Source of the DNA: Phycisphaerales bacterium
Lineage (GTDB): Bacteria > Planctomycetota > Phycisphaerae > Phycisphaerales > UBA1924
Direction: 5' to 3'
Assembly: GCA_030149165.1 (NCBI GenBank)
Contig: JASBRY010000008.1
Coordinates: 434,001-498,000, forward strand
DNA: 64,000 nucleotides
Part shown: positions 3,336 to 17,159 of the stretch, one piece after another
Numbering within the stretch: position 1 is the first letter of the stretch
How the letters are laid out: each line of letters opens with the position of its first letter
The notes under the pieces: model-generated
Databases searched by the model: none
What the model saw: only the letters and a program-made list of their open reading frames with translations
What the model was told of the DNA's origin: nothing
Program-made: the position numbers and the translations under genes

Positions 3336-4574
3336 TTACGGGCATCCCGCTCCATATTCGGCGAGGAACGCGGAGACATCCAAGAAGTTGAATGAGCCGT
3401 CGTCAGTGAAGTCGGCAACAGGATCGTCATTACTGAACGCAGTGAGGAATGCGCTCACATCCAAGAAGTTCAACGATTGATCCTCGTTGATATCCGCGGC
3501 GCAAGTGCTCTGAGTTGGTGTGAGCATGAATGCAGTCGCGAGAGCAGACCCGCTCCGGCGTCCCCAACCAACGATGATCCCTGTATTGGAAATATCGCGT
3601 GCATCGACGATCTGGAAGTCTCCAACATCCGCGAGCGTGTTCAGATCGACGAGCCCGTCTTCGTCTGAGTATCTCCAGTTCCCCCCCACAATCACTCCAG
3701 CGTCGTTGATCGCCCAGGCTTGGGTCATCGGTGATGGGAGTAGAGCAACACCGTCACCTTGTGACCACGCGAAGGCACGAATGTCTCCGCCGAATCCCGA
3801 GTCGCGCGAGCCGACCACGATGCCGTTGTTATTGATGTCGTACGCGTCGCTGCGCACGCCGACCTGTCCGACTGGGACGAGCTGAGAGTGCAGGTCGATG
3901 TGCTGGCTTGCATCGAAGTCGAAGTAGAACGCTTGATTGTTATCGAAGCGACCATTCCCGGCGATCCCGACCATCTCACCAAAATCGTTCACACTCCAGA
4001 CCTGACCGGCATCGGGAACGAGGCCTGTTGATTTGAGATTCACGATCCCGGTGCCTTCGGTCCAGAAGAACGCGTCACGCAGAACACCTTGGCTGATGGA
4101 CCCCTGTCTGATCGAAGCGCCCACGACCATGCGAGACTCGCTGATGTCCCATGCTCGGAGCGCGACATCGCCTACGAAGACATCGATCTGATCACTCCCA
4201 CCCTCGGCGTACTCAACAGTTGCCCATTGCAGATGCGGAGACTCCATGACGCGATCACCACGATTGTTCAGTGCGTTGAGGTGCTCAGCAGTTTCTCCAG
4301 TCCCATTGGAACTCCATGTCACCGATTGGTTGGTGACGCTGAAGTTCCCGCTGGGGAGTTGAGTCAGGACGGTGCTCGTGCCCCAAGCGGTGCCGTTGTC
4401 GAGCACACGAACAAAGATGCTCTCTGAGGTCGAGCTGTCATAGAACGGCTCGACCACATGGAGGTTGTACTCGAACGATCCCTGCGCGTGTACTGATCCT
4501 GCACTGAGCGCGAGCGCTCCCACAATAGCAACAAGTTTGAGACTTGAACGAGTTTGTGTTGGTGTTTGAAACAT
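3336..4574 (-). CDS. Secreted GC-dockerin protein with HAF-like repeats
   Basis: The protein has 412 residues. It opens with a Sec signal peptide (hydrophobic core VAIVGALALSAG, cleavage near VHA-QG). The middle consists of repeats built around 'AWDIS..RMVVGAS', 'VNDFGEMVGIAG', 'DINNNGIVVGSRD' and 'AINDAGVIVGG', the pattern of HAF-type extracellular repeats. The last 57 residues are a GC-type dockerin with two D-x-N-x-D-x-S-LNFLDVSAFL units ending GAGCP. I chose the ATG at 4574 because GGAGGA lies 4 bases upstream of it; longer reading is possible but unsupported. It is a single-gene unit with a sigma54-like promoter and an activator site upstream. Its function is unknown; it is presumably exported and attached through the C-terminal module. 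Confidence 0.85.
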   Translation of the reverse strand: MFQTPTQTRSSLKLVAIVGALALSAGSVHAQGSFEYNLHVVEPFYDSSTSESIFVRVLDNGTAWGTSTVLTQLPSGNFSVTNQSVTWSSNGTGETAEHLNALNNRGDRVMESPHLQWATVEYAEGGSDQIDVFVGDVALRAWDISESRMVVGASIRQGSISQGVLRDAFFWTEGTGIVNLKSTGLVPDAGQVWSVNDFGEMVGIAGNGRFDNNQAFYFDFDASQHIDLHSQLVPVGQVGVRSDAYDINNNGIVVGSRDSGFGGDIRAFAWSQGDGVALLPSPMTQAWAINDAGVIVGGNWRYSDEDGLVDLNTLADVGDFQIVDARDISNTGIIVGWGRRSGSALATAFMLTPTQSTCAADINEDQSLNFLDVSAFLTAFSNDDPVADFTDDGSFNFLDVSAFLAEYGAGCP

Positions 4575-4632: not shown

Positions 4633-4648
4633 ATCAATCCGCATGCCA
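4633..4648 (-). promoter_or_regulatory. Sigma54-type -24/-12 promoter candidate for the gene at 3336-4574
   Basis: Read on the minus strand it is TGGCAT-N5-TTGAT, against the consensus TGGCAY-N5-TTGCW. The -24 half is perfect. The -12 half has GA where GC is usual, with the correct GG-N10 spacing. It lies about 60 bp before the start codon and 103 bp from the centre of the dyad at 4742-4757. Confidence 0.55.
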
Positions 4649-4741
4649 AACCTGTTGTTTGCAGGGATTCAATACAATTCAACACATCGCGCAACTCAGA
4701 TACAAAGCATAAATATGACGCTGCACAGATGTGGCCAAGGC

Positions 4742-4757
4742 TGGCTAATAGTCGCCA
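4742..4757. promoter_or_regulatory. Putative enhancer dyad (copy 1), TGGCTAATAGTCGCCA
   Basis: This 16-bp imperfect inverted repeat (TGGC...GCCA around AATAGT) matches four other copies in the region. A further TGGCCA half-site adjoins at 4732-4737. It is a candidate binding site for the sigma54 activator encoded at 13130-14605. Confidence 0.6.
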
Positions 4758-4781
4758 ACTCGATCGCATCAGCCACGGATT

Positions 4782-6110
4782 TCATGGACAACCAGCGCCG
4801 TAAGCGGCGAGGAACGCGGACACATCGAGGAAGTTGAACTGCCCGTCATTGGTGAAATCTGCAGCGGGATCTGTGGCACCGAATAGTTGCAAGAAGGCGC
4901 TGACATCAAGAAAGTTGAGCGATCCATCAGGAGTCAAATCCGCAGCACATAAACCCAAGCAATCATACGACGCGACATTCCATGCATCGCTATTGCCGCC
5001 GGCGCTTGAGAACTGACCGCCTGCATAGATTGTCCCGTCCGCAGTGACCGTAGCATCCCAGACTGTTGTTTGGATTGCGGGAATCATTCCTGTACCCAAC
5101 GCAGACCATTGATCGCTTGCGGGATCGTAGATCGCGATGTTGTTCGCCGGAACAGAATCGACCATGTGGAAGAATCCGGACAGGATGACCTTTCCCTCTG
5201 CAGTAGTCTCAAGATCCCAAGGCGAGCTGCCGTTGGTTCCGTTGAGACCATCGCCCACTGGGGACCATGTGGAGCCGTCCCAGATCGCGAGTCCGTTGCA
5301 AGCGACACCGCCTGCTTCACCGAAGATTCCAGCGACCATCAAGTCACCATTGGGCAGCAAGGTCATCGCGCGAGGGACATTGTTCAATCCTGTTCCTAGT
5401 GCGTGCCACTGGACACCATCCCATCGAGCGATACCACGGATTGGCATCCCATCAACTTGGGTAAAGTTCCCGCACGCGATGATGTCGCCGTTTGGGAGTT
5501 CTATGAGATCCTGCGCCATCGTGGGACTCGGCTCAGGTGTGAACCATCCCGCGAATCCACCTCCGACTGTGTTGTTGCCGAGCTTGTTCCACTGGACACC
5601 ATCCCATTTCGCGATTCCCCACGCCGGCTGATTATCAGCTTGCAGGAACGATCCTGCCGCGATCACTTCGCCGTCACCTGTATTCAATATCGCACGACAT
5701 GATCCCGCATCCAATCCATCTCCGAATGCGTGCCATTGTGTGCCATCCCATCGAGCTATGAGTCCGGCGTTCATGTTTCCGGCTTGCGTGAATTGACCTC
5801 CTGCGATGAATCCACCTCCTGGGAGAGCAACAATGCTCCGGACGAATCCATTCACCCCATTGCCGGGCTCGGACCATGTCGAGCCGTCCCAGATCGCGAT
5901 CCGATTGACAAACTGTCCATCGATCCCGCTGATTGAACCACCAAAGACCACGCTCCCATCGTCGAGCGCGGCGCATCCATACGCTGCCGGTCCAGCCCCA
6001 GTCCCCAAGGGAGACCAGTCACAATCGCCAGCCATTGCTATAGAGGTTGTCGTCAGTGTGCTCATTTGGCAGGCCATCGATATGAGCATGAGTGAGTGTT
6101 GAGATTTCAT
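4782..6110 (-). CDS. Secreted GC-dockerin protein with tandem 'IAxWDGxxW' repeats
   Basis: The protein has 442 residues. It has an N-terminal signal segment (cleavage probably near SIAMA-GD). At least six tandem repeats of about 55 residues follow, each carrying the pattern 'G.F....G....IA.WDG..W..LG.G', for example IARWDGTQWHAFGDGLD and IARWDGVQWHALGTGLN. Such repeats are expected to fold as a beta-propeller. The C-terminus is the GC-type dockerin ending GAGCP. The ATG at 6110 is preceded by GGAAAG at a good distance. A TTG 96 bases upstream is open but lies within the predicted promoter. The gene stands alone between two activator-site-bearing spacers. The ligand is unknown. Confidence 0.85.
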   Translation of the reverse strand: MKSQHSLMLISMACQMSTLTTTSIAMAGDCDWSPLGTGAGPAAYGCAALDDGSVVFGGSISGIDGQFVNRIAIWDGSTWSEPGNGVNGFVRSIVALPGGGFIAGGQFTQAGNMNAGLIARWDGTQWHAFGDGLDAGSCRAILNTGDGEVIAAGSFLQADNQPAWGIAKWDGVQWNKLGNNTVGGGFAGWFTPEPSPTMAQDLIELPNGDIIACGNFTQVDGMPIRGIARWDGVQWHALGTGLNNVPRAMTLLPNGDLMVAGIFGEAGGVACNGLAIWDGSTWSPVGDGLNGTNGSSPWDLETTAEGKVILSGFFHMVDSVPANNIAIYDPASDQWSALGTGMIPAIQTTVWDATVTADGTIYAGGQFSSAGGNSDAWNVASYDCLGLCAADLTPDGSLNFLDVSAFLQLFGATDPAADFTNDGQFNFLDVSAFLAAYGAGCP

Positions 6111-6189
6111 AGTTACTTTCCATTCAGTTTGCCCACGCACACAACACGAGCGATTCGTGCTGAACAGTTGCGGGTTCTGTGTAATGGAA

Positions 6190-6206
6190 TGCAAATGAGA
6201 GGCCAA
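6190..6206 (-). promoter_or_regulatory. Sigma54-type promoter candidate for the gene at 4782-6110
   Basis: The minus strand reads TTGGCC-TCTCA-TTTGCA, with the invariant GG and GC dinucleotides exactly 10 bases apart. It lies about 80 bp before the ATG and 92 bp from the centre of the dyad at 6288-6303. An alternative (TGGCAT-N5-TGTAT, 6223-6238) has a perfect -24 half but no -12 GC and a different distance. Confidence 0.5.
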
Positions 6207-6287
6207 GCTTCAATCCTGCTTGATACATGCCTATGCCAACCAAACTCAGTGCTTAGTCAATACAAGAAACTCATTTGGTGACAGTTT

Positions 6288-6303
6288 TGGCCAATAGTGA
6301 TCA
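6288..6303. promoter_or_regulatory. Putative enhancer dyad (copy 2), TGGCCAATAGTGATCA
   Basis: This copy of the 16-bp motif lies upstream of the gene at 4782-6110. Its last three bases are the stop codon of the gene at 6301-8787. Confidence 0.55.
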
Positions 6304-8787
6304 GGGGCATCCATTGCTGTACGCAGACAGGAAACTGGAAACATCGAGGAAGTTGAATAAACCATCGTCCGTAAAATCTGCGGCGGGATCACTATTCCCG
6401 AACGCGGTCAGGAACTCGCTGACATCCAGGAAGTTCAATGACTGATCGTTATTGAGATCAGCAGGACAGTCACTTGCGGCTCCAGATGTGAGCAGGATCG
6501 CTTCGGTGCGTCCGAGCACGCTGTTGTATGCCGAGCCAACGATCGAGATGGTCCCATCCGGCGCAACCTCGATGTCTCTCAAGTTGAATCCTGTGTAGTC
6601 ACTGGGAACGACATCGACCAGACTGGTGAATGATCGCGCTGAGCTGCCCCAGATCCCGATGCGGCTTGTTGGTTCATCTGGGAAAGTCGCGGCTCCGATC
6701 TGCAGTCCGCCGTCGCACGCGTAGAGATTGCTGGTTGACGCGCCCTCTGGAGTGAGGTCGATAACTGATTCGGGTGATCCTTCCCACATCACGCCTCGTG
6801 GCGTGCTCCACTGGTTCGCGACTCCGATCTGCTGACCATCGCTCGCATCGACGATGGCGCTGTTCCCGGCCCAATCTGGGTTCATATCGACGAAACTCGA
6901 AGCCGAGCCGCGCCACATCGCGGCGTGCACGACCGCGAATGGGAGCGAAGCGGTCCCGAACTGGTACTCTCCATCCACAGCAACAGCACTGCTGTTGCGA
7001 TAGCCCGTGGGATGGATCGACTGCGCGGAGTAGTGTGTCGGCGCTCCCCAGATCACGGCACGCGTGTAATAGTTTCCCGAAGCATCGTCTGTGGTTCCTG
7101 ATCCGACGACGGACACACCATCGGTTGCGGACATGGTGGTGTACTCGTATCCTGAGTAGCTTGTCTCGTGGAATGTGCCGTCAAGATTCCACCAGCATCC
7201 GCGCCTGAAGTAGCAGGTCTGCCATTGGTTGTTGACATAGCACTGGATCGGTTCCCACCACCAACCCACGAGTTTGTCTCCAGCGAAATCAAGGATGTTC
7301 CCGCCTTGCGAACCGCTCTGGGTGAGGTTGAGGACGCTGCTTGCACTGCCCGTCCATTTGACTGGATGATCGATGTTGTTGTAGTCAGGCGTGTCATACA
7401 CCGCATTTCCTACTTGAACGCCGTTGTCGATGCTGTTGGCATACGAGGCTTCTGCAAATGACGGATGCAGACTCGTCCAGGTCCACTCCTGGGCAATGTC
7501 AGGCGGGAAGCGAACGCTGACCATCGCGGGATCGCTGGTGTCGGATCCGCATGCGTTGGTCGCGACCAGTGTGTAGCTGCCCTCCGCGCTCGCTGGGAAA
7601 TCGTCGATGCGGAGGCCTTGGGTGTTCGCGCCGATCACGCTGCTTCCGTCGACTTGCACGCCGTCAGTGAGTGGCATCCCATCACGCATCCACTGGTAGG
7701 TCATTGCACCAGCGCCTGAAGATTGCACACTCAGACGAAGCACGGCGTACTCCCATACCGATGTATCGATCGGTTGCTGGAAGATCACTGGACAGGGAGT
7801 CGCATAGATCGACTCGACACTCGCTGTCCCCCCACTGCCGTTGGCGCCTCCGATGACATAGAGGCGATCGTCGGAGCCCAGGATCGTCGTGAATGTACTG
7901 CGCGGCTCGCTCATCGTGGCGCCATCAGACCAACTGTCGAGCATCGGGTCATAGACCTGAACTGTACTGACGGTTTGCGCCGATCCGCTCGGACCCTCGA
8001 TCCCGCCGAGAACATAGATTCGTCCGTCAGCGCCGAGACTTGCTCGATGATGTGAGACACCTATGGGCATGTCTGCATTCGCACTCATGGACCAAGTGTT
8101 CGTCGCGATGTCGTATTGCAGGACTTCGGTTGAGCGGACAGAAGTATCGGTTCCGATCCCGCCGAACACCAGAATGTGACCCATTCCATCGACACACGCC
8201 GCGGCGTTGCTGAGTGGGATCGGCATCGGCGCGATGGGCTCCCACATGTCCAGCGATCCGATATAGCGCTCGCAGTAAGTGGAACTCGGAGAGGCGCTCC
8301 CTCCGAGCGAGTAGATGCGTCCTTGATCATCAGTGCAGTACGCAAAGCCGCTAACTGGCGCGCTGGGACTGCGCTCCGCGAGATCATGCCAAGGCCCTTC
8401 GTCGGGATGCCAATCGAATGGTGTGGGTGTGTTCTCGGCGTCGTTGATGTCGTATCCACCAAAGATCACGATGCGTCCGAGGTCGTCGATCCCGCCTCCG
8501 AACCCGACGAGTCCGCCGTAGCCGTCGAAGCTGTTTTCTTCCTGCCAAACACTCCCCCCGATCGGCATGGAATAGACCGTCCCATCCTCCATGCTCGCGG
8601 CGTTGAGCCATGGAGGACCTCCGAGCACATAGAGCCGACCATCACTCTCTACACCCACGGCGTGGGTCTTCGCCTCGCCGTTGGTTGGGAGTGAGGACTC
8701 GGATTGCCAATGCCCGTCAGTGCTTTGAGCGAGTGAGATCGAGGTCAGTGCTGATAGAACGAGAACAGCGAGTGTGTGGTGACGCAT
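6301..8787 (-). CDS. Secreted Kelch-repeat / Ig-like / HAF-like GC-dockerin protein
   Basis: This is the largest of the family at 828 residues. A signal peptide covers residues 1-20 (cleavage at SLA-QS). Residues about 25-330 contain Kelch-type repeats (for example GRIYVLGGIEG and DDRLYVIGGAN), predicted to form a beta-propeller. Residues about 340-430 look like an Ig-like domain (YQWMRDGMPLTDG, then GSYTLVATNACGS). The region from about 435 to 760 carries degenerate repeats of the 'W.GS..S..DL...G' kind, similar to HAF repeats. The GC-type dockerin ends SNGCP. It is the third gene of a unit with the genes at 8812 and 10238: only 24 bp separate it from its upstream neighbour. Function is unknown, possibly glycan or matrix binding. 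Confidence 0.85.
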   Translation of the reverse strand: MRHHTLAVLVLSALTSISLAQSTDGHWQSESSLPTNGEAKTHAVGVESDGRLYVLGGPPWLNAASMEDGTVYSMPIGGSVWQEENSFDGYGGLVGFGGGIDDLGRIVIFGGYDINDAENTPTPFDWHPDEGPWHDLAERSPSAPVSGFAYCTDDQGRIYSLGGSASPSSTYCERYIGSLDMWEPIAPMPIPLSNAAACVDGMGHILVFGGIGTDTSVRSTEVLQYDIATNTWSMSANADMPIGVSHHRASLGADGRIYVLGGIEGPSGSAQTVSTVQVYDPMLDSWSDGATMSEPRSTFTTILGSDDRLYVIGGANGSGGTASVESIYATPCPVIFQQPIDTSVWEYAVLRLSVQSSGAGAMTYQWMRDGMPLTDGVQVDGSSVIGANTQGLRIDDFPASAEGSYTLVATNACGSDTSDPAMVSVRFPPDIAQEWTWTSLHPSFAEASYANSIDNGVQVGNAVYDTPDYNNIDHPVKWTGSASSVLNLTQSGSQGGNILDFAGDKLVGWWWEPIQCYVNNQWQTCYFRRGCWWNLDGTFHETSYSGYEYTTMSATDGVSVVGSGTTDDASGNYYTRAVIWGAPTHYSAQSIHPTGYRNSSAVAVDGEYQFGTASLPFAVVHAAMWRGSASSFVDMNPDWAGNSAIVDASDGQQIGVANQWSTPRGVMWEGSPESVIDLTPEGASTSNLYACDGGLQIGAATFPDEPTSRIGIWGSSARSFTSLVDVVPSDYTGFNLRDIEVAPDGTISIVGSAYNSVLGRTEAILLTSGAASDCPADLNNDQSLNFLDVSEFLTAFGNSDPAADFTDDGLFNFLDVSSFLSAYSNGCP

Positions 8788-8811
8788 TGGAATTGATCCG
8801 TTCTGAAATGT

Positions 8812-10185
8812 TTATGGACATCCCACGCTGTACGCGCTCAGGAATGCGGAAACATCGAGGAAGTTGAGTTGGCCGTCAACTTGGAAGTCCGCGATTGGAT
8901 TGCTTGATCCGAACATCGACAGGAAGGCGCTGACATCGAGGAAGTTCAGTTCCCCGTCCCCAGTCAGATCAGCGGAACACGCGTCGATGCTCTCACCGAA
9001 CACATACACTGCTCCCTCAAAGTTGCTGTCGCTGAATCCGGTCGCTCCAACCGCGACGACCCCATTGTCCATCACAATGGATGAACCGAGCATATCAAAT
9101 GTTCCACCATCACTCGCAAGGAGTTTGTCGATCTGACTCCCGCTGTGAGCATCGAACAGGTACGCGGAACCTCCGGACCATGCCATGTCATCGTCTTCAT
9201 TGGCGCCAATCGCGATTGTTCCATTGTCGAGCGAGACCGAGAATCCGAAATGGTCACGATCCTGTCGATCGTCAGGGAAGATGAACGCGAGTTGCTCGCC
9301 GCTCGATGCATCAAAGACATACGCGGCGCCGGAGAAGTCGAAGAACACGCTTCTGTGAGGCGCGCCGACTGCGACCAGACCATTGTCGATATCGATGCTG
9401 TCAGCGAACTGACCGCCTTGATCTCCGTTGTAGTTCTCGATATCTGCTTGGAGCACATTGGTCACTTCACCCGTGCTCGCATCAAACAGGTGCACCTTCG
9501 CGAATGTAAATCCCTCGCCGAGGACAAAGTAGGTTCGTGATCCGACGGCGACGATGCCGTCATCCATCGCGATTGAGACCCCGAAGGTCTGGTAGTTGTT
9601 CCCCGAGTCAGGAAGCAGTTTCTCGAGTTGAGTCCCAGTTGAAGCATCGAAGAGGTACGCGGCTCCGGATCCATCCCCCAGATCATCCGCTCTCCATGCA
9701 CCGACCGCGATGGTTCCATTGTCGAGTGCAATGGAGTTCCCGAACTCGTCGCCGCTCTCCGGATCATTGGGAACGATCTTCTCGAGTTGCGCCCCTGTGT
9801 TTACATCAAAGATGTACGCTGAACCCGAAGCGATCCCATTGTGCTCATCGCCTGGAGCTCCGACGACAACGATGCCGTCTTGGATCGCGATCGAGAACCC
9901 AAACTGATCACCAGCAGCGCCGTCACTTGGGAGCAGCTTCGCGATCTGTGCTCCAGTTGTCGCGTTGATCAGGTACGCGGACCCAGAGTTGTTGCCGTTG
10001 TCATCGTCGTTGTGAGCGCCCACAGCGATGATCCCGTTGTCCATATCGATGGCGTATCCGAACTCGTCGTCGGCAGCCCCGTCAAGAGCAGTGATCTTCA
10101 TCCCCTCGTTGACAATCGCTCCAGAAGCGGAGGAGAGGAGTAGTCCGAGTCCCAAGAATGCGGCGGTTGATTTCATGTTGTTCAT
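8812..10185 (-). CDS. Secreted FG-GAP-repeat GC-dockerin protein
   Basis: The protein has 457 residues with a signal peptide (LGLGLLLSSASGA). It contains seven or so repeats of about 50-55 residues with the pattern 'D..GDxFGxSIAxDxGxxxVGA...D......G.AYLFD...G', for example GDEFGNSIALDNGTIAVGA. This is the FG-GAP pattern of integrin-alpha-like propellers. The C-terminal GC-type dockerin ends SVGCP. The start at 10185 is supported by GAAGGA seven bases upstream; a longer frame to 10251 would run into the preceding gene. It lies 52 bp after the gene at 10238-11464 and 24 bp before the next, so it is probably the middle gene of a three-gene unit. Confidence 0.85.
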   Translation of the reverse strand: MNNMKSTAAFLGLGLLLSSASGAIVNEGMKITALDGAADDEFGYAIDMDNGIIAVGAHNDDDNGNNSGSAYLINATTGAQIAKLLPSDGAAGDQFGFSIAIQDGIVVVGAPGDEHNGIASGSAYIFDVNTGAQLEKIVPNDPESGDEFGNSIALDNGTIAVGAWRADDLGDGSGAAYLFDASTGTQLEKLLPDSGNNYQTFGVSIAMDDGIVAVGSRTYFVLGEGFTFAKVHLFDASTGEVTNVLQADIENYNGDQGGQFADSIDIDNGLVAVGAPHRSVFFDFSGAAYVFDASSGEQLAFIFPDDRQDRDHFGFSVSLDNGTIAIGANEDDDMAWSGGSAYLFDAHSGSQIDKLLASDGGTFDMLGSSIVMDNGVVAVGATGFSDSNFEGAVYVFGESIDACSADLTGDGELNFLDVSAFLSMFGSSNPIADFQVDGQLNFLDVSAFLSAYSVGCP

Positions 10186-10237
10186 TTCATTTTCCTTCGT
10201 TGAATTATTGAGTAACTGTTCAAACCACGCAAAGAGC

Positions 10238-11464
10238 TCACGGGCATCCATCTGAGAACATGCTCAGGAACGCAGAAACATCGAGGAAGTTCAGTGATCC
10301 GCTCTGATCAAAGTCCACACTCTGATCTCCGGCATTGAACGATGACAGGAAGGCGCTGATATCGAGAAAGTTCAACTCGCCGTCAAGCGTAAGGTCCGCG
10401 GCACAAATGGAAGTATTCGGAACGAGGACCACAACAGCGTTGGTGTCCGCGCTTGCGTCGTAGGCGATCGTGTAGACTCGGCGATCATTGCCGATGTACC
10501 CAATACTCGTATCCCAGTTCTGATCAGCAGGTTCGGTCAGTGCGTCATACGAACCGAACCATTGGTCCTCGTTTGCGAAGTACACGCCACCCCACGCGGA
10601 GACATCGCCTTGGTTGTTGTTGTCGTACACAAACCCGACGAATCGAGTCCCAATCAAGTCGGGATTCATCGGAGTCCAGATGCCGTCGTAGATATAGGTC
10701 AACCATTGGTTGTTCGTAGAGGTCGCAATATGCGCTGCGGCGATAACCTGCTCGCTGTCGTTGATCGCGTATCCGAGCACATGCGTGAATCCGACTGAAC
10801 CGACTTGACCGGGAACACCGATATGCGTTGCGGTATTCGTGTTCAGGTCAAAGATGTAGTTTCCGCCAACCGCGACATTGTTGTTGTTAATGTCCTCAAC
10901 AGTCGCTTGGAATCCGAGCTCTCCGAGATTGACTGGAGGCTGATCCATCGAAAAGAGTGTCGTTGGACCTCCCTGGAAACCTTGATAGCGCGACCACCCC
11001 ACCACGACTCCGGCATCGTTGATCGCCGTTGCCATCCCGCCGTTGATTGGGAGAACACCCAAAGGGCTTGGCTGGGACTCAAACTGCTCTGGGATATGCG
11101 CGGTGTACCCTCCATTCCCATCCGGAACCCAGATCGCGGGCTCACCACCGTCAAAGACAAATCCACCTCCATGCACGGCACCAACCACGACGCCATTGTT
11201 ATTGACATCCATCGCGACACTCGAAGTTGTGCCGTTTGGGAGTGGGAGCAGTGTTATGCCGTTTCCTTGAGACGCAACGAATGCTCGGCTGAGTCCATTC
11301 ACGATCTGATCTCCGACGATCAAACCAGTATCACTCGCTCCACGAACATTGGTGGACTGCGTGAAGGTCGCGACCACATCGACGCTGTAGGTTGGAACTT
11401 CTGCGTGTGCCGCCAAGCCGCAGGCGCTGACGAGTGTGAGTGCAAAGCGTTGGATCGTGTTCAT
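10238..11464 (-). CDS. Secreted GC-dockerin protein with HAF-like repeats
   Basis: The protein has 408 residues. The signal peptide ends near AAHA-EV. The body contains HAF-like repeats ('GASDTGLIVGD', 'DVNNNGVVVGAVHGG', 'AINDAGVVVGWS', 'DINNNNVAVGGN', 'AINDSEQVIAAAH') related to those in the protein at 3336-4574. The GC-type dockerin has a divergent first unit (LNFLDISAFLSSF) and ends SDGCP. The ATG at 11464 is preceded by GGGGA at a suitable distance; an ATG four codons upstream would overlap that site. It is the promoter-proximal gene of the three-gene unit driven from a textbook sigma54 promoter at 11528-11543. Confidence 0.85.
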   Translation of the reverse strand: MNTIQRFALTLVSACGLAAHAEVPTYSVDVVATFTQSTNVRGASDTGLIVGDQIVNGLSRAFVASQGNGITLLPLPNGTTSSVAMDVNNNGVVVGAVHGGGFVFDGGEPAIWVPDGNGGYTAHIPEQFESQPSPLGVLPINGGMATAINDAGVVVGWSRYQGFQGGPTTLFSMDQPPVNLGELGFQATVEDINNNNVAVGGNYIFDLNTNTATHIGVPGQVGSVGFTHVLGYAINDSEQVIAAAHIATSTNNQWLTYIYDGIWTPMNPDLIGTRFVGFVYDNNNQGDVSAWGGVYFANEDQWFGSYDALTEPADQNWDTSIGYIGNDRRVYTIAYDASADTNAVVVLVPNTSICAADLTLDGELNFLDISAFLSSFNAGDQSVDFDQSGSLNFLDVSAFLSMFSDGCP

Positions 11465-11527
11465 GGTGTTCCCCATTCATTGAGTTGCTCGTTGTGTTGC
11501 ATGAGTTGCAAACACTGAGAAGGCACT

Positions 11528-11543
11528 TGCAATATGTGTGCCA
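11528..11543 (-). promoter_or_regulatory. Sigma54 promoter, perfect consensus
   Basis: The minus strand reads TGGCAC-ACATA-TTGCA, an exact match to the sigma54 consensus TGGCAC-N5-TTGCW. It lies about 65 bp before the ATG at 11464 and would drive the genes at 10238, 8812 and 6301. The centre of the dyad at 11636-11651 is about 101 bp upstream of the -24 GG. Confidence 0.85.
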
Positions 11544-11635
11544 TAAATATTGTGGACACGAAGATCTTTAATAGCAAGAAAATCCACGCTCAACGAGGAT
11601 GGATTTTGAATATGGCAAGATGTGGCCAGCAGGAT

Positions 11636-11651
11636 TGGTTCATAGTGGCCA
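11636..11651. promoter_or_regulatory. Putative enhancer dyad (copy 3), TGGTTCATAGTGGCCA
   Basis: This is the 16-bp motif upstream of the perfect sigma54 promoter. A second TGGCCA half-site lies at 11622-11627, between the dyad and the promoter. Confidence 0.62.
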
Positions 11652-11657
11652 GTTTGG

Positions 11658-13133
11658 TCATGGACAGCCCATACCAAAGGCACTTAAGAACGCGGAGACA
11701 TCTAAGAAGTTGAACTGTCCATCGACCACAAAGTCCGCGGCGGGATCCATCGCGCTGTACGCACTCAAGAACGCGGAGACATCGAGGAAGTTGAGCGATC
11801 CCTCTCCAGTCAGGTCAGCCGGGCAATCTGGTGCGAGGATGTCATCATCGGAAATGATGCCATCACCATTGAGATCTCGGAGATCGAAGTTCGGACCATA
11901 ATCCACAATCTCAACATCCCCATCGACAACGCCGTCGGCGTCTGATGCTGTTCCATCAAGAAGAGCAATGGAATCTTCGATGATCTGCGTGTCTGATTCT
12001 GTGACGAGGTCGTCGTCATCAAGATCGCCGTGGATCTCATCAAATCCTGTATCGGTCCAGATGAAGAACGCTGTTGGATCTTTGACGAGCGACGCCGTCC
12101 CGATGAGCGCTGATGCCCCCCACTGACGCGGGCGGTAATAGTCTTCTTTCTGACGCCCCTCCCAAGGCTGGGTGAGTTCGCCAAGATTACCAACGGCGTA
12201 GTCCGCGCCATAAATCAAATCATCGAGCGCTTCGGCGATGGATGTTTGGTTGGAAACATTGGAATCGACGGATTGTTCACTCTGACCCAGAAGTTCCGCC
12301 GCGCCTTCGTTGGTGACTGGGAAGATGAGTGTGATGGTGGTTTCGTCTACCGAGGTCTCGTGCTTGAACTGGAGCTCGACCACTGGATCAAAGAGTCCAA
12401 AGTCGCTCCCTCCGAACAATCCGCTCTCTGGAGCAAACGCAACGAAACGCTCAAAGAAACGACCGCTCACGATCCATGTCTCTCCTGCGTCGAAGTTCGA
12501 GTCCATGTTCCCGTCTTGCGTGATGATGCTCGGAGTGAAACAGCCGCACATCGCGAGCGCGAAATCCCCTCCGGATCGCTCGAACTGTGGTTCGGTGTTG
12601 AAGTTCGAATCAAGATCTTCCGCGGCGTTGCGGACCATGCGATCGGAGATCGAACCGAATGGACTGAGTCCGAAGCGTCCTACATTTGCGAGATACCGAT
12701 TCTTCGCGAGCGGCATGAACTCCCCGCCGCTGTTCTTCTGATCGTCAACATCGAGCTCGATGTATCCGAAGAGCGGACGATCTCCAAACAAGTAGGGCGC
12801 ATACGGAGATGCGTCCAGACCGATCGGACCTGGAGGCGCGACGAGACCAGCAACACGGATCTGGATGCGAACGAGATTCGCATCGCCTCCGGTGCTATCT
12901 CCGTTGTATGGGTTCGTTTGTGGTGTGCTGGTTTCCCATCCCTCCACACGGAGTTCGAGCAGATCAATCGGTTCGAATCCCATAGGAAGGGGTGCATCCT
13001 GACCTGAGTCTGTGCGGCGGATCACGGCATCGCCCACAGCGTCTGTAAACACGCCGTCGCCGTCGGAACTCCATGCAATCGGGGTCATCAAGCACATGAC
13101 GAGCATCAGAATGGAGCAAGCACGATTCATCAT
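11658..13133 (-). CDS. Secreted GC-dockerin protein, unknown globular domain
   Basis: The protein has 491 residues and a signal peptide (ILMLVMCLMTPIAWS). The body has no repeat pattern I recognise. It is acidic and contains Ca-loop-like stretches near residues 370-440 (DLDDDDLVTESD, DADGVVDGDVEIVD, DLNGDGIISDDD). The C-terminal GC-type dockerin ends GMGCP. The start overlaps the stop of the response-regulator gene by 4 bp, so it is translationally coupled to it. This makes it the only dockerin protein built into the kinase/regulator operon, a reasonable candidate for a dedicated output or accessory sensor. Two adjacent ATG codons (13133 and 13130) can both serve as start. Confidence 0.82.
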   Translation of the reverse strand: MMNRACSILMLVMCLMTPIAWSSDGDGVFTDAVGDAVIRRTDSGQDAPLPMGFEPIDLLELRVEGWETSTPQTNPYNGDSTGGDANLVRIQIRVAGLVAPPGPIGLDASPYAPYLFGDRPLFGYIELDVDDQKNSGGEFMPLAKNRYLANVGRFGLSPFGSISDRMVRNAAEDLDSNFNTEPQFERSGGDFALAMCGCFTPSIITQDGNMDSNFDAGETWIVSGRFFERFVAFAPESGLFGGSDFGLFDPVVELQFKHETSVDETTITLIFPVTNEGAAELLGQSEQSVDSNVSNQTSIAEALDDLIYGADYAVGNLGELTQPWEGRQKEDYYRPRQWGASALIGTASLVKDPTAFFIWTDTGFDEIHGDLDDDDLVTESDTQIIEDSIALLDGTASDADGVVDGDVEIVDYGPNFDLRDLNGDGIISDDDILAPDCPADLTGEGSLNFLDVSAFLSAYSAMDPAADFVVDGQFNFLDVSAFLSAFGMGCP

Positions 13134-14605
13134 CGCTCTACGATCTCCCTGACTTGATTCTCGAGGTTGTATCGCTCGATGCGGTATCTGAAGCTCGATC
13201 GCTGCATCCCGATCAAACGCGCGGCTTTGGACACATTCCCGCCCGTGTGCTCGAGCGCTTGGAGCATCAACAACCGCTCGATCTCATCGGCTTTGTGTGG
13301 ACCGTTTTCAAAGTCAATCTGGAAACCATCCCCAGCACCTGTCGCTGATTGTGCACGAACTGACGCTGCAGTCCCCGGCTTGATCGCGAGATCATCGCGA
13401 TCGATCTCGTCTCCGCTGCAGAGCATCGCGGCTCGCTGAATCATGTTGAACAGCTCGCGGACATTCCCGGGCCAATGGTGTGATCGCAGCAGCGCCTTCG
13501 CGTCGTCGCTGATCTCGACTGGATCCATTGAGTACTCTCGCCGCAGACGATCGACGAGACTCTGCGCGATGAGCACCGCATCATCACCCCGCTCGCGCAA
13601 GCTGGGGAGTGTTATGGTGAACGCGTTGATTCGATAGAGCAGGTCCTCGCGGAAGTTGCCGTCCTTGACCGCTTGTTCGAGATCACGATTGGTCGCGGCG
13701 AGCACCCTGACTCGGATCGTGCGTTCCTTTGCTGAACCCACCCGGCGTATCTTCCCTTCTTCCAGTACTGTGAGCAGTTTCGCTTGCAGCTCGAGCGGGA
13801 GGTCCCCGATCTCATCGAGGAAAATCGTCCCGCCGTCAGCCATCTCAAACAACCCCTCGCGAGCTTCCTTTGCGTCCGTGAACGCGCCTTTGACATGACC
13901 AAAGAGTTCACCCTCGATCAAAGTCGCAGGCAACGCCGTGCAGTTCACATGAACGAACGGCTGCTTGGGATCATCGCTGGAGTTGTGCAGATGCTTCGCG
14001 AGCACGCCTTTACCAGCCCCAGTCTCACCGGTGATGAGCACTGTGGTGACCGCACCGCCGCTGGCGCTGCCGAGATCTGCTGTGCGATTGATGACCGGGA
14101 TCTTTGCGAGGCGCTCGGCGAGTTCGAGTGTCTGGACCCAAGCGGGTGACTTACCCACTGGTCGATTGCTCGCTTGGTCGACCTGACGCATGCGCTGATA
14201 GAGACGAAGATGACGCGAGTTGCGACGCTGCTCCAGAAGTCGATCGGTGATGATCTTCAGTTCCTCAAGACGAACCGGTTTCGCGAGGTAGTCGTCAGCT
14301 CCGAGCTTCATCGCTCGCACCGCATCATCCACATTCGCAAATGCGGTCATCAGCACGATCCCACCCTCGTAGCCTTGCTCGCGTAGTTCCTCGACATAAT
14401 CGATCCCAGACTCAGCACCCAGGTTCACATCCGTCAGTACGATATCGAACTCTCCAGCAGCGAATGCATCACGCGCTTCTGGGAGCGAGGCGACATCGAT
14501 CACCTCATGATCCGCTTTGATAAGCGCCCTCGCAACTGTGAAGCGCAAGGTCTCGTCGTCTTCAATGAGCAGAATACTGGCCAATCCATATACCTTACTG
14601 GCCAA
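13130..14605 (-). CDS. Sigma54-dependent response regulator (NtrC family)
   Basis: The protein has 491 residues. An N-terminal receiver domain (LLIEDDE; phosphoacceptor Asp in VLTDVNLG; conserved Lys in DDYLAKPV) is followed by an AAA+ sigma54-interaction domain. That domain carries Walker A GETGAGKG, the loop GAFTDA in place of the usual GAFTGA, and Walker [14 protein letters not shown] Fis-type helix-turn-helix ([18 protein letters not shown]) ends the protein. It is predicted to activate sigma54 promoters on phosphorylation by the kinase encoded just upstream. The start is unsure: TTG at 14605 or TTG at 14584. The second has AAGG eight bases upstream and begins right at the receiver domain. 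A copy of the regional 16-bp dyad overlaps this start. It is the inferred activator of the dockerin promoters. Confidence 0.9.
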
Positions 14606-14614
14606 TACTGGCCG
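14599..14614. promoter_or_regulatory. Putative activator-binding dyad (copy 4) over the regulator start, TGGCCAATACTGGCCG
   Basis: This is the motif with one G-to-C change in the core. Two more TGGCCA strings lie within 30 bp (one at 14578-14583), giving three tandem half-sites. No -24/-12 element is found about 100 bp downstream, so this copy more likely mediates autoregulation than enhancer action. Confidence 0.45.
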
Positions 14615-14617
14615 TGT

Positions 14618-16105
14618 CTATCCTTTTCCAGCATCCTGAGCATTCATGCGGACACGCATCACAAACGCTGTTCCTTGCTCAGAATCGCCGATTGGGGGCG
14701 ATTGGACCTCGATCGAGCCTTTGTGCTGATCGATGATCCTGTGTACTAATGCAAGTCCAATGCCAGTTCCGCCTTTGCGCGTGGTGAAGTATGGCCGGAA
14801 AATAGAGACATGCAAGTCCGCTGGAATCCCAGGACCATGATCCCGCACAATCAGGGTCCAGTAATCCGCATCCGCATTCAGCGTCAAATCCACGCTTGTC
14901 CCGCTCGGCGCGTAGTCGATCGCGTTGCTGAGCAGTGCCGTGATCGCGTGTTCGAGCTGCTCAGGATCACCAACCCCTTCACTCGTTTGATTGATCTCGT
15001 GGAGATGAATCGTCACCGATCGACTCTCAGCAGCGCCTCGATGCGATTCGATGACCCCATTGATGAGTTCCTTGGGGTTGTACGGACGATGATGGAGCTG
15101 GAGCGGCGAGGATACCCGGAGCATGCCTTGGAGCCAACCCTCGAAGCGATCGACGCTCGAGATGATGCGCTGCTGAATCTCTCGCAGGTCTGATTCAGGT
15201 TCCAGCTCGCTTTGAGTCGTTTCAGCAAGCGCACGGATCCCGGCGAGCGGGGTCCTGAGGTTATGCACAGTGCGCTGCGCCATCTCACCCATCGCCGCGA
15301 GCCGTTCGCGCTCGATGCGTTCGTCCTGCATCGACTGGATCATGGAAGACATGTGGTTGAATTCATCACCCAGTTGACCAAGCTCGTCGCTTGTTCGAAC
15401 CTGAATATTGTGGTCGAACTCGCCCTTTGCGTAGTGCTGTGCGCCGATTCGGAGCTGATTGACAGGTTGGAGCACCCAACGGCGTAAGAGAATTACACAG
15501 TAAAACGCGACGAGTGCGGCGCCGAGCACGCCGATCGCGATGATGCTGTAGATCAGCACACGCAGGCGCTGCCCGTATGTGTTCGCGAGCGCCGCGTCCG
15601 CGATCATCCGGCCCTCGATGCGTTCGATGAGCTCGTGCCTTGCTTCAATGAAGGCAACAACCTGTTCGTACTGGTCTCGCGTTTGATCATTGAGCCATTG
15701 ATTGGTGATCTGTGTGATCTCGCTTGAACGAGCGCGTAAGTTTTCACTCGTGGATACTCCGGACTGGAAACGCATCGAACTCTCATCATCGAGCACTTCG
15801 AGCACTTCACTCACTTGCTGCTCAAGCGAGAGAATCCGTGGAGCGATCAGCTCTGCATTCACTACTTCTGGAGCATCATCGGCCGATCGTGTGATTGCGA
15901 ATCGGCCCACCCCGAGCTCCTGTGCTTGCTGTTCTCCCAATCGTTTGATGTCGTACAACCCTTTAAGCACGGGCTGCGAAGATCGCATGGACCACGCGAG
16001 CTCTCGCTCAAGGAAGCGGATACTCCACACGCTCAGCACAACATTGGCGCCCAGCGTTACGCCGAGCAGCGCGAGCACGATGAAGAACTTGGATCGCAGC
16101 GACAT
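14618..16105 (-). CDS. Membrane sensor histidine kinase
   Basis: The protein has 495 residues. Transmembrane helices at about residues 7-29 and 178-203 flank a helical extracytoplasmic sensor of about 150 residues. A HAMP linker follows (LRRWVLQPVNQLRIGAQHYA), then a dimerisation/phosphoacceptor region with the His in RTVHNLRTPLAG (about residue 280). The ATP-binding domain has the N box (LLSNAIDYAP), G1 (VRDHGPGIP) and G2 (GGTGIGLALVHRI). It lies 12 bp upstream of the response regulator and is its obvious partner. A pseudopilin-like gene ends 30 bp before its start. The signal it senses cannot be read from the sequence. Confidence 0.9.
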   Translation of the reverse strand: MSLRSKFFIVLALLGVTLGANVVLSVWSIRFLERELAWSMRSSQPVLKGLYDIKRLGEQQAQELGVGRFAITRSADDAPEVVNAELIAPRILSLEQQVSEVLEVLDDESSMRFQSGVSTSENLRARSSEITQITNQWLNDQTRDQYEQVVAFIEARHELIERIEGRMIADAALANTYGQRLRVLIYSIIAIGVLGAALVAFYCVILLRRWVLQPVNQLRIGAQHYAKGEFDHNIQVRTSDELGQLGDEFNHMSSMIQSMQDERIERERLAAMGEMAQRTVHNLRTPLAGIRALAETTQSELEPESDLREIQQRIISSVDRFEGWLQGMLRVSSPLQLHHRPYNPKELINGVIESHRGAAESRSVTIHLHEINQTSEGVGDPEQLEHAITALLSNAIDYAPSGTSVDLTLNADADYWTLIVRDHGPGIPADLHVSIFRPYFTTRKGGTGIGLALVHRIIDQHKGSIEVQSPPIGDSEQGTAFVMRVRMNAQDAGKG

Positions 16106-16135
16106 ATCGCGATGGTACCCGAAACAACGACCTGA

Positions 16136-16972
16136 TCAGCGTCCGCCTTGATATGACCAGTCGAAGTCTGGTTCACTTGCAGGCTCAGCGCTGGATTCCA
16201 CATGACCATCCACGAAAGCGATGTTCGCCTTGCCTCCATGCCGGAGACCAGGCATCCAGACACGATCATCCGCGTACGGCCCCTGCGAGTCCAGCGATGG
16301 AGCAATATACAAAGGATTCACACCCTGATCTTGCGCTGACAGTCCATCCACATCCATGAGCAGAGGCACATTGCCGTGCGAGAGAATATCCGAACGCAGG
16401 TTTACTCCCACAACGCGCGGACGGCCTCTTGAATCGATAATCTCCGCACGATGCAAGCGAGCGTTGAACGCATAGGACACACTCGGGCCTGGTCCAACGG
16501 CACCGTTGGAACACGCGAGATTGTTGCGGAGCGTCATCGGCTCGCGGACTTCCGGACAACGCATCGGATTGTTCCCGCTCGCATCTGGGACTTCCACGGC
16601 TCCTGAGTCACCCCAGCGCCAGAACTCATCGACCGCGTATTGACTCTCTTGGAATGTCTCGATGTGGAACAGACCACCATCGCCGTCGTCACCACGATCA
16701 CCGTGGAGTTGGGGATCGGCGAAGATTTGGAAATCAAACGCGACCGATCGCTGCGCCATCTGACATTTGAACGCGCGCGCTCGGACCATCGCGCCGTGGA
16801 TCGCTGGACTGAGTATCCCGATCAGCAGCGCGATAATTGAAACAACAACGAGCAACTCTATGAGTGTGAACGCTCGACGAGGATCGGCTGCGACTGTGTT
16901 GTCCCCACAGGATGACATGTCAGCATCATAACCCATTCGAGTCGTTTCACGGAATAGGTTTCTCAAATTCAC
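16136..16972 (-). CDS. Prepilin-type N-methylation and H-X9-DG domain protein
   Basis: The protein has up to 278 residues. A type IV prepilin-like cleavage site (RRAFTLIELLVVVSIIALLIG) lies near the N-terminus. The C-terminal 'RHGGKANIAFVDGHVE' is the H-X9-DG signature seen in the large DUF1559-like family of planctomycete pseudopilins. The start is uncertain: GTG at 16972, ATG at 16936 or ATG at 16918, none with a strong ribosome-binding site. The last gives a leader of typical length. It precedes the kinase gene on the same strand by 30 bp, so a pseudopilin, kinase, regulator and dockerin protein appear to share a transcript. A role in secretion or surface assembly linked to this regulon is only inference. 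Confidence 0.78.
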   Translation of the reverse strand: MNLRNLFRETTRMGYDADMSSCGDNTVAADPRRAFTLIELLVVVSIIALLIGILSPAIHGAMVRARAFKCQMAQRSVAFDFQIFADPQLHGDRGDDGDGGLFHIETFQESQYAVDEFWRWGDSGAVEVPDASGNNPMRCPEVREPMTLRNNLACSNGAVGPGPSVSYAFNARLHRAEIIDSRGRPRVVGVNLRSDILSHGNVPLLMDVDGLSAQDQGVNPLYIAPSLDSQGPYADDRVWMPGLRHGGKANIAFVDGHVESSAEPASEPDFDWSYQGGR

Positions 16973-17005
16973 ACGGAAAAATGAAGACTCACTTCGAGCA
17001 GAGTC

Positions 17006-17058
17006 TGGCTAATTCTCTGGCCAACTCAAGCCTGTGATGGATAGGCCAATAGTCACCA
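17006..17058. promoter_or_regulatory. Putative enhancer dyads (copy 5), AGGCCAATAGTCACCA at 17043-17058 plus a variant at 17006-17023
   Basis: The main copy at 17043-17058 has its centre 95 bp from the -24 GG of the + strand promoter at 17144. The variant TGGCTAATTCTCTGGCCA at 17006-17023 has a two-base-longer core. The spacer is shared with the divergent pseudopilin-kinase-regulator unit, so it could also affect that unit. Confidence 0.6.
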
Positions 17059-17143
17059 TCACCACTGGTTCCTGCCAGCCAGAATCAGCACGGGATATCG
17101 AGAAACTGCACCAAATCAACGGTTTTTGTGCGTTTGCGGGATT

Positions 17144-17159
17144 TGGCACGCCGGTTGTA
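17144..17159 (+). promoter_or_regulatory. Sigma54-type promoter for the gene at 17249-18529
   Basis: The sequence TGGCAC-GCCGG-TTGTA has a perfect -24 half and one change in the -12 half (GT for GC). It lies about 90 bp before the start codon. Confidence 0.6.

Follow-up and report, generated by a model that had tools for sequence, protein, structure and literature searches.

A predicted autoregulated sigma54 switch for secreted GC-dockerin proteins in Phycisphaerales, with a candidate promoter inside its kinase gene

Introduction

GC-dockerin proteins are abundant in the genome of the Phycisphaerales bacterium studied here, with 94 matches, 83 of them over the cut-off, in 2.84 Mb, and the question raised by the present locus is how a set of them may be switched on together. 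The locus lies in a stretch of 64,000 nucleotides, called the window below (G000:C6:434001-498000, from a genome in 11 contigs that is 94% complete), in which seven GC-dockerin genes are clustered with the genes of a histidine kinase and an NtrC-type response regulator. A first-pass annotation had proposed a self-contained sigma54-dependent regulon there, in which one signal turns on a set of secreted proteins. The sequence comparisons reported here suggest that kinase and regulator very probably constitute a dedicated, autoregulated sigma54-dependent switch for secreted GC-dockerin proteins, and point to a candidate promoter of the regulator within the coding sequence of the kinase. G-numbers denote genomes and L-numbers loci of relatives; A, B, C and E are promoters and D is the dyad at 14599.

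Results

Dyads and promoters of the GC-dockerin genes

Four upstream regions of the cluster combine dyads of the half-site TGGCCA with a -24/-12 element:

4633..4649, minus strand: -24/-12 element of promoter A
4732..4757, no strand: dyads of promoter A (4732-4747 and 4742-4757)
6190..6206, minus strand: -24/-12 element of promoter B
6278..6303, no strand: dyads of promoter B (6278 and 6288)
11528..11544, minus strand: -24/-12 element of promoter C, TGGCAC-N5-TTGCA
11613..11651, no strand: dyads of promoter C (11613 and 11636)
17018..17058, no strand: dyads of promoter E (17018 and 17043)
17143..17159, plus strand: -24/-12 element of promoter E

The five dyads that the first-pass annotation had placed at 4742, 6288, 11636, 17043 and 14599 are all found there, and the first four precede GC-dockerin units as claimed, A, B, C and E each standing before a GC-dockerin gene. 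The dyad centre-to-GG distances of 103 bp (A), 92 bp (B) and 95 bp (E) are reproduced, but the 101 bp given for C is 102 bp. The proposed 16-bp consensus is exact at 4742, 6288 and 11636, with one mismatch at 17043 and two at 14599; the operative unit is the half-site TGGCCA, usually in more than one dyad per promoter, and not a single 16-mer. Three dyads lie at the 3′ ends of upstream genes, and a role as terminators was considered and dropped, a T-run being absent by eye and D and E not fitting.

The genes behind these promoters are:

3336..4574, minus strand: GC-dockerin protein with HAF/DUF3466 repeats, target of promoter A
4782..6110, minus strand: GC-dockerin beta-propeller protein (Rax2/DUF5122), target of promoter B
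10238..11476, minus strand: GC-dockerin protein with a weak DUF3466 match, first gene behind promoter C
8812..10251, minus strand: GC-dockerin FG-GAP protein (FG-GAP_2), second gene behind promoter C in a presumed operon
6301..8787, minus strand: GC-dockerin kelch/Ig protein, third gene behind promoter C in the same presumed operon
17249..18529, plus strand: FGGAP3, a GC-dockerin FG-GAP protein, target of promoter E

With DOC491, described below, the cluster has seven dockerin proteins, and the C-terminal domain of every one exceeds the NF041540 cut-off of 29 bits (35.3-45.1 bits), and the Pfam families of the targets are propeller and FG-GAP. All seven genes would be served by A, B, C, E or the element embedded in the kinase gene, if the trio behind C forms one operon and DOC491 is co-transcribed with the regulator, as we presume.

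Specificity within the genome

Since the 16-mer was drawn from the window's own sites and is therefore circular as evidence, tests independent of it were used; its three exact copies in the genome, all in the cluster, are the sites from which it was derived. A half-site matrix made from D as it occurs at 36 other loci (72 half-sites, own locus excluded) puts D at the top of the 63,985 window positions. The next nine places (ranks 2-10) go to 11613, 4732, 4742, 6288, 17018, 17043, 11636, 4722 and 6278, every one of which lies at one of the four promoters. Six of the ten window copies of TGGCCA lie within 658 bp made up of the four upstream regions and D (P about 2e-10, for regions picked after the sites were known). 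The composite pattern GGCCA-N75-105-TGGCMY-N5-TTG has four matches across the 2.84-Mb genome, which are the four promoters, each of them preceding a GC-dockerin gene, and the reversed-pattern control has one; the degenerate bases were chosen so that all four known elements pass, and the result is that no further matches occur. The expectation that such pairs concentrate before GC-dockerin genes is thereby borne out for the cluster, which holds all four.

When the upstream regions of the 94 GC-dockerin matches were scored jointly for dyad and -24/-12 element with a matrix trained on the window, four reached 34-35.5, all of them in the cluster, and the next best reached 18.4; the remaining three cluster dockerin genes lie inside the C operon or behind the regulator. 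None of the 87 GC-dockerin upstream regions outside the cluster has the pair of dyad and element. By plain TGGCCA count, seven of these 87 have a -24/-12 element of at least 14.5 and none has one with a dyad above 7/12, the four promoters reaching 9-11. Chance similarity of intergenic sequences might be argued from the derivation of the motif from its own sites, and from the count at up to three mismatches, where the 16-mer has 19 window matches against 10.9 expected. This is contradicted by the composite search and the relatives-only matrix, and countered further by the upstream scores, the clustering of TGGCCA and the lack of D in distant regulator homologues (below). A chance origin of the dyads was rejected on the first four of these grounds, and we find it barely credible.

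Co-occurrence with the regulator in relatives

A search of 150 family genomes set regulator orthologues, at 45-79% identity and in some cases partial, apart from paralogues at no more than 42%, and a list compiled by hand from the identities gave 58 regulator-positive genomes, own included, and 92 negative ones. Strict composite sites, counted after overlapping hits had been merged by hand, number 62 in 35 of the 58 positive and 25 in 21 of the 92 negative genomes (genome-level Fisher P 5e-6), in line with the earlier suggestion that motif and regulator be compared in relatives. The reversed-pattern control, counted by eye, gave 10 hits in positive and about 15 in negative genomes, and most hits in the latter are thus at chance level. 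Among the sites fetched, which were the 60 in positive genomes other than the own and 20 of the 25 in negative ones, a strong -24/-12 element with a dyad of at least 9/12 was found in 33/60 versus 1/20. A GC-dockerin gene came next in 20/60 versus 0/20 (Fisher P 0.002), followers being assigned by a longest-open-reading-frame rule; frame inspection of the positive non-dockerin sites alone later added L206. Lack of dockerins does not explain the negative genomes, since GC-dockerins, counted up to a cap per genome, are present in 147 of the 150.

A second set, the named relatives, comprises 28 loci of 48-85% identity from metagenome assemblies of Phycisphaerales or other Planctomycetota, one labelled just 'bacterium'. 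Within 20 orthologue regions read by the longest-frame rule, DOC491 was recognised in 18, a prepilin match in 15 (a short stretch in L107) and the kinase in 13, some of the gaps being due to contig ends and to the rule itself. FGGAP3 is the most frequent target type, standing behind dyad and -24/-12 element in six of the 20 regions and also at L305, L312 and L322. Unlinked loci behind such promoters carry an FG-GAP_2 relative (59% over 433 residues) and a kelch relative (45% over 831) in G024, and a kelch relative (42% over 842) in G080.

L103, L111, L112, L114, L115, L116: FGGAP3-type regions (for L103 and L114 by eye, on the N-terminus)
L235, L236, L242: unlinked full-length target relatives in G024 and G080

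The regulator and its operon

The regulatory genes form the conserved block of the cluster:

16136..16972, minus strand: prepilin-like H-X9-DG protein (TIGR02532, TIGR04294), opening the block
14618..16105, minus strand: histidine kinase with HAMP, HisKA and HATPase domains
13130..14605, minus strand: NtrC-type response regulator (PF00072, PF00158 and PF02954 above cut-offs; REC, sigma54-interaction and Fis-type helix-turn-helix)
11658..13133, minus strand: DOC491, a GC-dockerin protein (NF041540, 41.6 bits), conserved operon partner

Domain matches to both proteins agree with the earlier claim that a sigma54 activator and its kinase are encoded in the cluster, the regulator showing the full NtrC-type set of REC, sigma54 AAA+ and Fis-type helix-turn-helix domains above cut-offs. 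The genome has one copy of rpoN, the gene on which the annotated regulon would depend. The regulator probably starts at the TTG at 14584, and its gene shares 4 bp (ATGA) with that of DOC491. No Pfam match was found for DOC491, and comparison of its AlphaFold model (predicted local distance difference test score 71) with PDB folds gave nothing at E 0.001 or better; assigning it a function from structure was dropped on these grounds.

The 10-residue recognition helix of the regulator is unchanged or nearly so in 40 of 42 orthologues. As the genome has four strong sigma54-activator matches, one of the three others, among them one in the window (39849-41288), might be what uses the dyads. D, however, stands at the regulator's own gene and is found with its orthologues only, the composite sites follow the presence of the regulator, and the remaining activators differ in their helix-turn-helix ends; we consider use by another activator very improbable.

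Two side observations concern the activators themselves. The gene at 39849-41288 (minus strand) encodes a second NtrC-type sigma54 regulator in the window, nearest to the AtoC, NtrC and PrsR models and below all cut-offs listed. The regulator orthologues L074 and L095 each have one in-frame stop (TAG and TGA, respectively), from decay or assembly error.

A predicted sigma54 element on the kinase G2 box

One further -24/-12 element lies within the kinase gene:

14750..14766, minus strand: embedded -24/-12 element CTGGCATTGGACTTGCA on the codons of the kinase G2 box TGIGLA, predicted promoter of the regulator and DOC491

Like promoters B and C, this element has both GG at -24 and GC at -12, with 10 bp between them. 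In most orthologues the codons for GTGIGLA, the G2 box, run GGn ACT GGC ATn GGn CTT GCA, which gives CTGGCATnGGnCTTGCA, and the element precedes the regulator by 150-222 bp, in most cases by about 180. Codon conservation was compared over 473 conserved columns of three genes (kinase, regulator and DOC491), taken from 30 loci that by genus labels span 16 genera, against the codon usage of each locus; P values were used for ranking only, because related sequences are not independent. The top column is kinase Leu451, which is CTT in 30/30 loci at a mean usage of 12.7%. Thr447 (ACT) ranks second, Ala452 (GCA) third and Gly448 (GGC) fifth, all within the element, and the fourth rank goes to the codon that ends the regulator gene and overlaps with the start of DOC491. 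In the 41 readable distinct orthologues Leu451 is CTT in all 41, Gly448 is GGC in 40, Ala452 is GCA in 36 and the Thr447 codon ends in T in 36. The sequence CTT GC[AC] is kept in 28/28 named-relative loci. We take these patterns as strong evidence for selection on the predicted DNA element as such.

It could be objected that the codons are kept for rare-codon pausing or mRNA structure, the -24/-12 match being a by-product of TGIGLA, since G2 boxes tend to resemble GG-N10-GC and a distant homologue, L357, scores 15.6. Yet the fixed positions are the consensus positions, and in the same 41 orthologues the spacer wobble is free, with three codons for Ile and all four for Gly450; Gly446, outside the element, also has four codons in use. 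Thirteen other kinases of the genome with a G2-box-like match reach 9.4-13.4, and the embedded element scores 16.2. Over 37 near-invariant leucine columns the commonest codon has a mean share of 0.50, and Leu451 is the only one where it exceeds 0.67. A by-product is thus quite unlikely.

Dyad D before the regulator

Two sites lie at or just before the regulator start:

14599..14614, no strand: dyad D, of TGGCCA-N4-TGGCCA type, immediately ahead of the regulator gene, where the regulator is predicted to bind for autoregulation
14578..14583, no strand: a third half-site, TGGCCA, that overlaps the codon at which the regulator probably starts (TTG, 14584)

The dyad at 14599 had been annotated as a near match, and it is present, but far from being marginal it is the best-conserved site of all, first in the relatives-only ranking and retained in 37 of 42 distinct orthologous loci after duplicate removal. 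With at least 10/12 matches it is seen in 28/30 orthologous loci (own included) and in 25/28 named-relative loci; in more distant regulator homologues (41% identity or less) it occurs in 0/51. This special status and the embedded promoter are additions to the first-pass annotation. D lies 125-197 bp downstream of the embedded -24, with a median of 156 bp and 28 of 37 loci at 154-158 bp. The third TGGCCA over the start codon is found in 32 of the 42 distinct loci, the regulator codons there being Ala9 GCC in 25/30 and Ile11 ATT in 18/25. The simplest reading is that D would be the regulator's own site, of the same type as those upstream of its targets.

Within the window no -24/-12 element scoring at least 13.3 is found 40-170 bp downstream of D, and the most conspicuous codon columns of the regulator gene are those of the half-site at its start and of its last codon; a second embedded promoter in that gene, served by D, was discarded. 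No conserved dyad is seen upstream of the embedded element within the kinase gene, and an upstream enhancer there was likewise dropped.

How D acts admits of more than one reading. It is quite possible that D is a negative-feedback operator and not an enhancer, bound regulator blocking its own transcription or translation, with the regulon otherwise the same. The location just before the start codon, the half-site on that codon in 32/42 loci and the embedded element retained in four loci without D (L099, L325, L329 and L331) would all suit an operator. A sigma54 promoter, on the other hand, needs an activator, for which the kinase gene offers no conserved dyad upstream, and the near-fixed distance of D also speaks against an operator, though constant gene spacing gives the same. 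Alternatively, the three mutually complementary UGGCCA copies around the Shine-Dalgarno sequence and start codon could form an RNA hairpin that controls translation of the regulator, a reading to which the third copy over the start codon again lends itself. The inner pairs 2-5 form in 37/37 loci but are uninformative, because they almost never vary; the outer pair is broken without compensation in 9/37 and changed on both sides in only 2. The same dyad type moreover occurs upstream of the -24/-12 elements at four target promoters, where no mRNA hairpin would arise, and we regard the hairpin as unlikely.

A more far-reaching reading, held with moderate confidence, is that a promoter is overprinted on the kinase G2 box and maintained by synonymous-site selection in at least 16 genera, active-site codons doubling as the promoter of the regulator, which acts back through the near-fixed downstream dyad. 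This would be a self-amplifying or self-limiting switch, the regulon of which (GC-dockerin proteins, small secreted proteins and probable small RNAs) has been assembled anew from genus to genus on one and the same DNA code.

Other putative targets

Sites of this kind also precede genes of other types, and the best reading of the sequences is that the switch would cover other secreted proteins beside GC-dockerins. The description of the regulon as self-contained holds in the window, but in other genera the targets are dispersed and include non-dockerin genes. Likewise, one signal for a set of secreted proteins is supported, but the cluster holds just 7 of the 94 GC-dockerin matches of the genome.

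Secreted proteins of 134-157 residues stand behind dyad and -24/-12 sites at L211, L213 and L258, in three genera; two of them are alike at the N-terminus (DYRVRARIRTGT and DYRVQARIRTGT), and a 70-residue piece of the L211 protein has no Pfam match. Frames behind a -24/-12 element at L103:911 (minus strand) and L315:7570-8826 (plus strand) have LANNDLGMHCMMRDF in common, and the L315 protein has multihaem cytochrome family matches. At L305:5979-8450 (plus strand) parts resembling DOC491 and DUF3466, which belong to separate genes in the window, are joined in one frame of 823 residues with a GC-dockerin match.

In G148, G097, G119, G090 and G047 about 140-165 nucleotides past the predicted start hold no convincing frame and are followed by a strong terminator-like inverted repeat. 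The candidate small-RNA loci are:

L101:16536, L102:15209, L105:17369, plus strand: three genomes of the window's genus
L218, L219: two genomes of another genus

The frame-less transcripts predicted at these loci look like sigma54-driven small RNAs. Rfam named none of them and matched only tRNAs, in L101.

A gene of exosortase/EpsH type occurs elsewhere in the genome at L388 (G000:C10:365063-365788), at 99.5 bits just below the cut-off of 105.55, and a PEP-CTERM-type system may for this reason exist alongside the GC-dockerin proteins.

Discussion

In the mechanism that we propose, the kinase, judging by its domains, would sense a signal and phosphorylate the regulator, whose Fis-type helix-turn-helix would bind the TGGCCA half-sites with which it is co-conserved. 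With dyads about 80-120 bp ahead of the -24/-12 element at each of the four promoters A, B, C and E, activation of sigma54 polymerase by the regulator would there switch on six GC-dockerin genes. The regulator and the probably co-transcribed DOC491 would be transcribed from the sigma54 promoter overprinted on the kinase G2 box, and the regulator would control its own gene, positively or negatively, through D, which follows the element at about 156 bp and immediately precedes the regulator's start codon. The sequences, their conservation, the genome-wide specificity and the co-occurrence with the regulator are observations; binding, phosphorylation, transcription and the sign of D's action are what we infer from them.

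Several observations weigh against this mechanism. Promoters A and E keep the GG but have GA or GT at -12, one base off. A strict composite hit is missing in 23 of the 58 regulator-positive genomes, 25 hits occur even in regulator-negative ones, and 15 of the 33 strong sites (14 after frame inspection) precede genes not recognised as GC-dockerin by the longest-frame rule. D is missing from five of the 42 orthologous loci (L097, L099, L325, L329 and L331). In the L097 kinase the embedded element is not matched by the search pattern, yet Leu451 is CTT. The orthologues share ancestry, so that the P values overstate independence. A position downstream of the promoter is unusual for an enhancer; some sigma54 activators (FlbD, FleQ) are known to act from there. 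Finally, the sigma54-contact loop of the regulator reads GAFTDA, not GAFTGA, in 41/41 readable orthologues, and the three other sigma54 activators of the genome carry GAFTGA. In the parts of the literature drawn on, GAFTDA is among the loop variants said to keep activity (PMC4641369), and a pull-down with a GAFTDA protein did not recover sigma54 (PMC10714721).

For the abundant GC-dockerin proteins a candidate regulator, a DNA code and a short list of targets are now available. The embedded promoter is a clear candidate for a single stretch of DNA that codes a conserved enzyme motif and also the promoter of the next gene, and its footprint can be read at single-codon resolution. Codon-level conservation can thus expose promoters that are invisible to intergenic scans. 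In the titles and abstracts listed by searches of open-licence PMC papers, neither a regulon of this kind nor any regulation of GC-dockerin proteins came up, and in the portion consulted of a 2025 survey of sigma54 regulons that includes Planctomycetota (PMC12316311) the word dockerin is absent.

The comparisons that follow draw on portions of the papers cited. In the Planctosome hypothesis (PMC6461901) dockerin proteins of Phycisphaerae are proposed to form extracellular complexes; this concerns protein assembly, not regulation, and the dockerins there are not established as GC-type. The sigma54 regulome of Desulfovibrio vulgaris consists of dedicated activators with small regulons, some of which target a non-coding RNA beside the activator gene (PMC4641369), but its regulators are others and GC-dockerin targets are absent from that account. 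In Escherichia coli, intragenic sigma54 promoters conserved between species, such as those inside nagB, yqeC and rlmD, drive the next gene with leaders of 360-760 nucleotides (Bonocora 2015, PMC4591121). The embedded element resembles these in being a conserved sigma54 promoter inside one gene for the next, but it covers a catalytic motif, stands about 180 nucleotides ahead of the regulator gene and is linked to that gene's own dyad. The term 'histidine kinase' is absent from the text of PMC4591121 covered here, which contains no sigma54 promoter in a kinase gene. The pepA gene of Aquincola has been found RpoN-dependent by bench test, the role of PrsK/PrsR there being unsettled (PMC9850573); it is likewise a case of a sigma54-dependent, C-terminally sorted surface protein, but of the PEP-CTERM kind.

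The closest counterpart is PrsK/PrsR of Proteobacteria, where a two-part motif, in the portion consulted reported from Proteobacteria alone, precedes PEP-CTERM genes and tracks the regulator (Haft 2006, PMC1569441). Both systems have a kinase with an NtrC-type regulator, an activator site followed by a -24/-12 element, surface-protein targets with a C-terminal sorting-type domain, and a motif that tracks the regulator across genomes; the likeness is one of layout. The present regulator reaches 321 bits against TIGR02915, for which the cut-off is 502.6, and TIGR02916 is not among the 25 best of the 82 models matching the kinase, the best being AtoS (cut-off 646) with 148.6 bits. The seven dockerin proteins of the cluster all have a C-terminal GC-dockerin in place of PEP-CTERM, and the present system, found outside the Proteobacteria, differs further in its operon with prepilin-like and GC-dockerin genes and in the sigma54 element inside its kinase gene. 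Since the regulator model and the sorting domain both fail, the switch is a parallel to the PrsK/PrsR/PEP-CTERM system and not a member of it.

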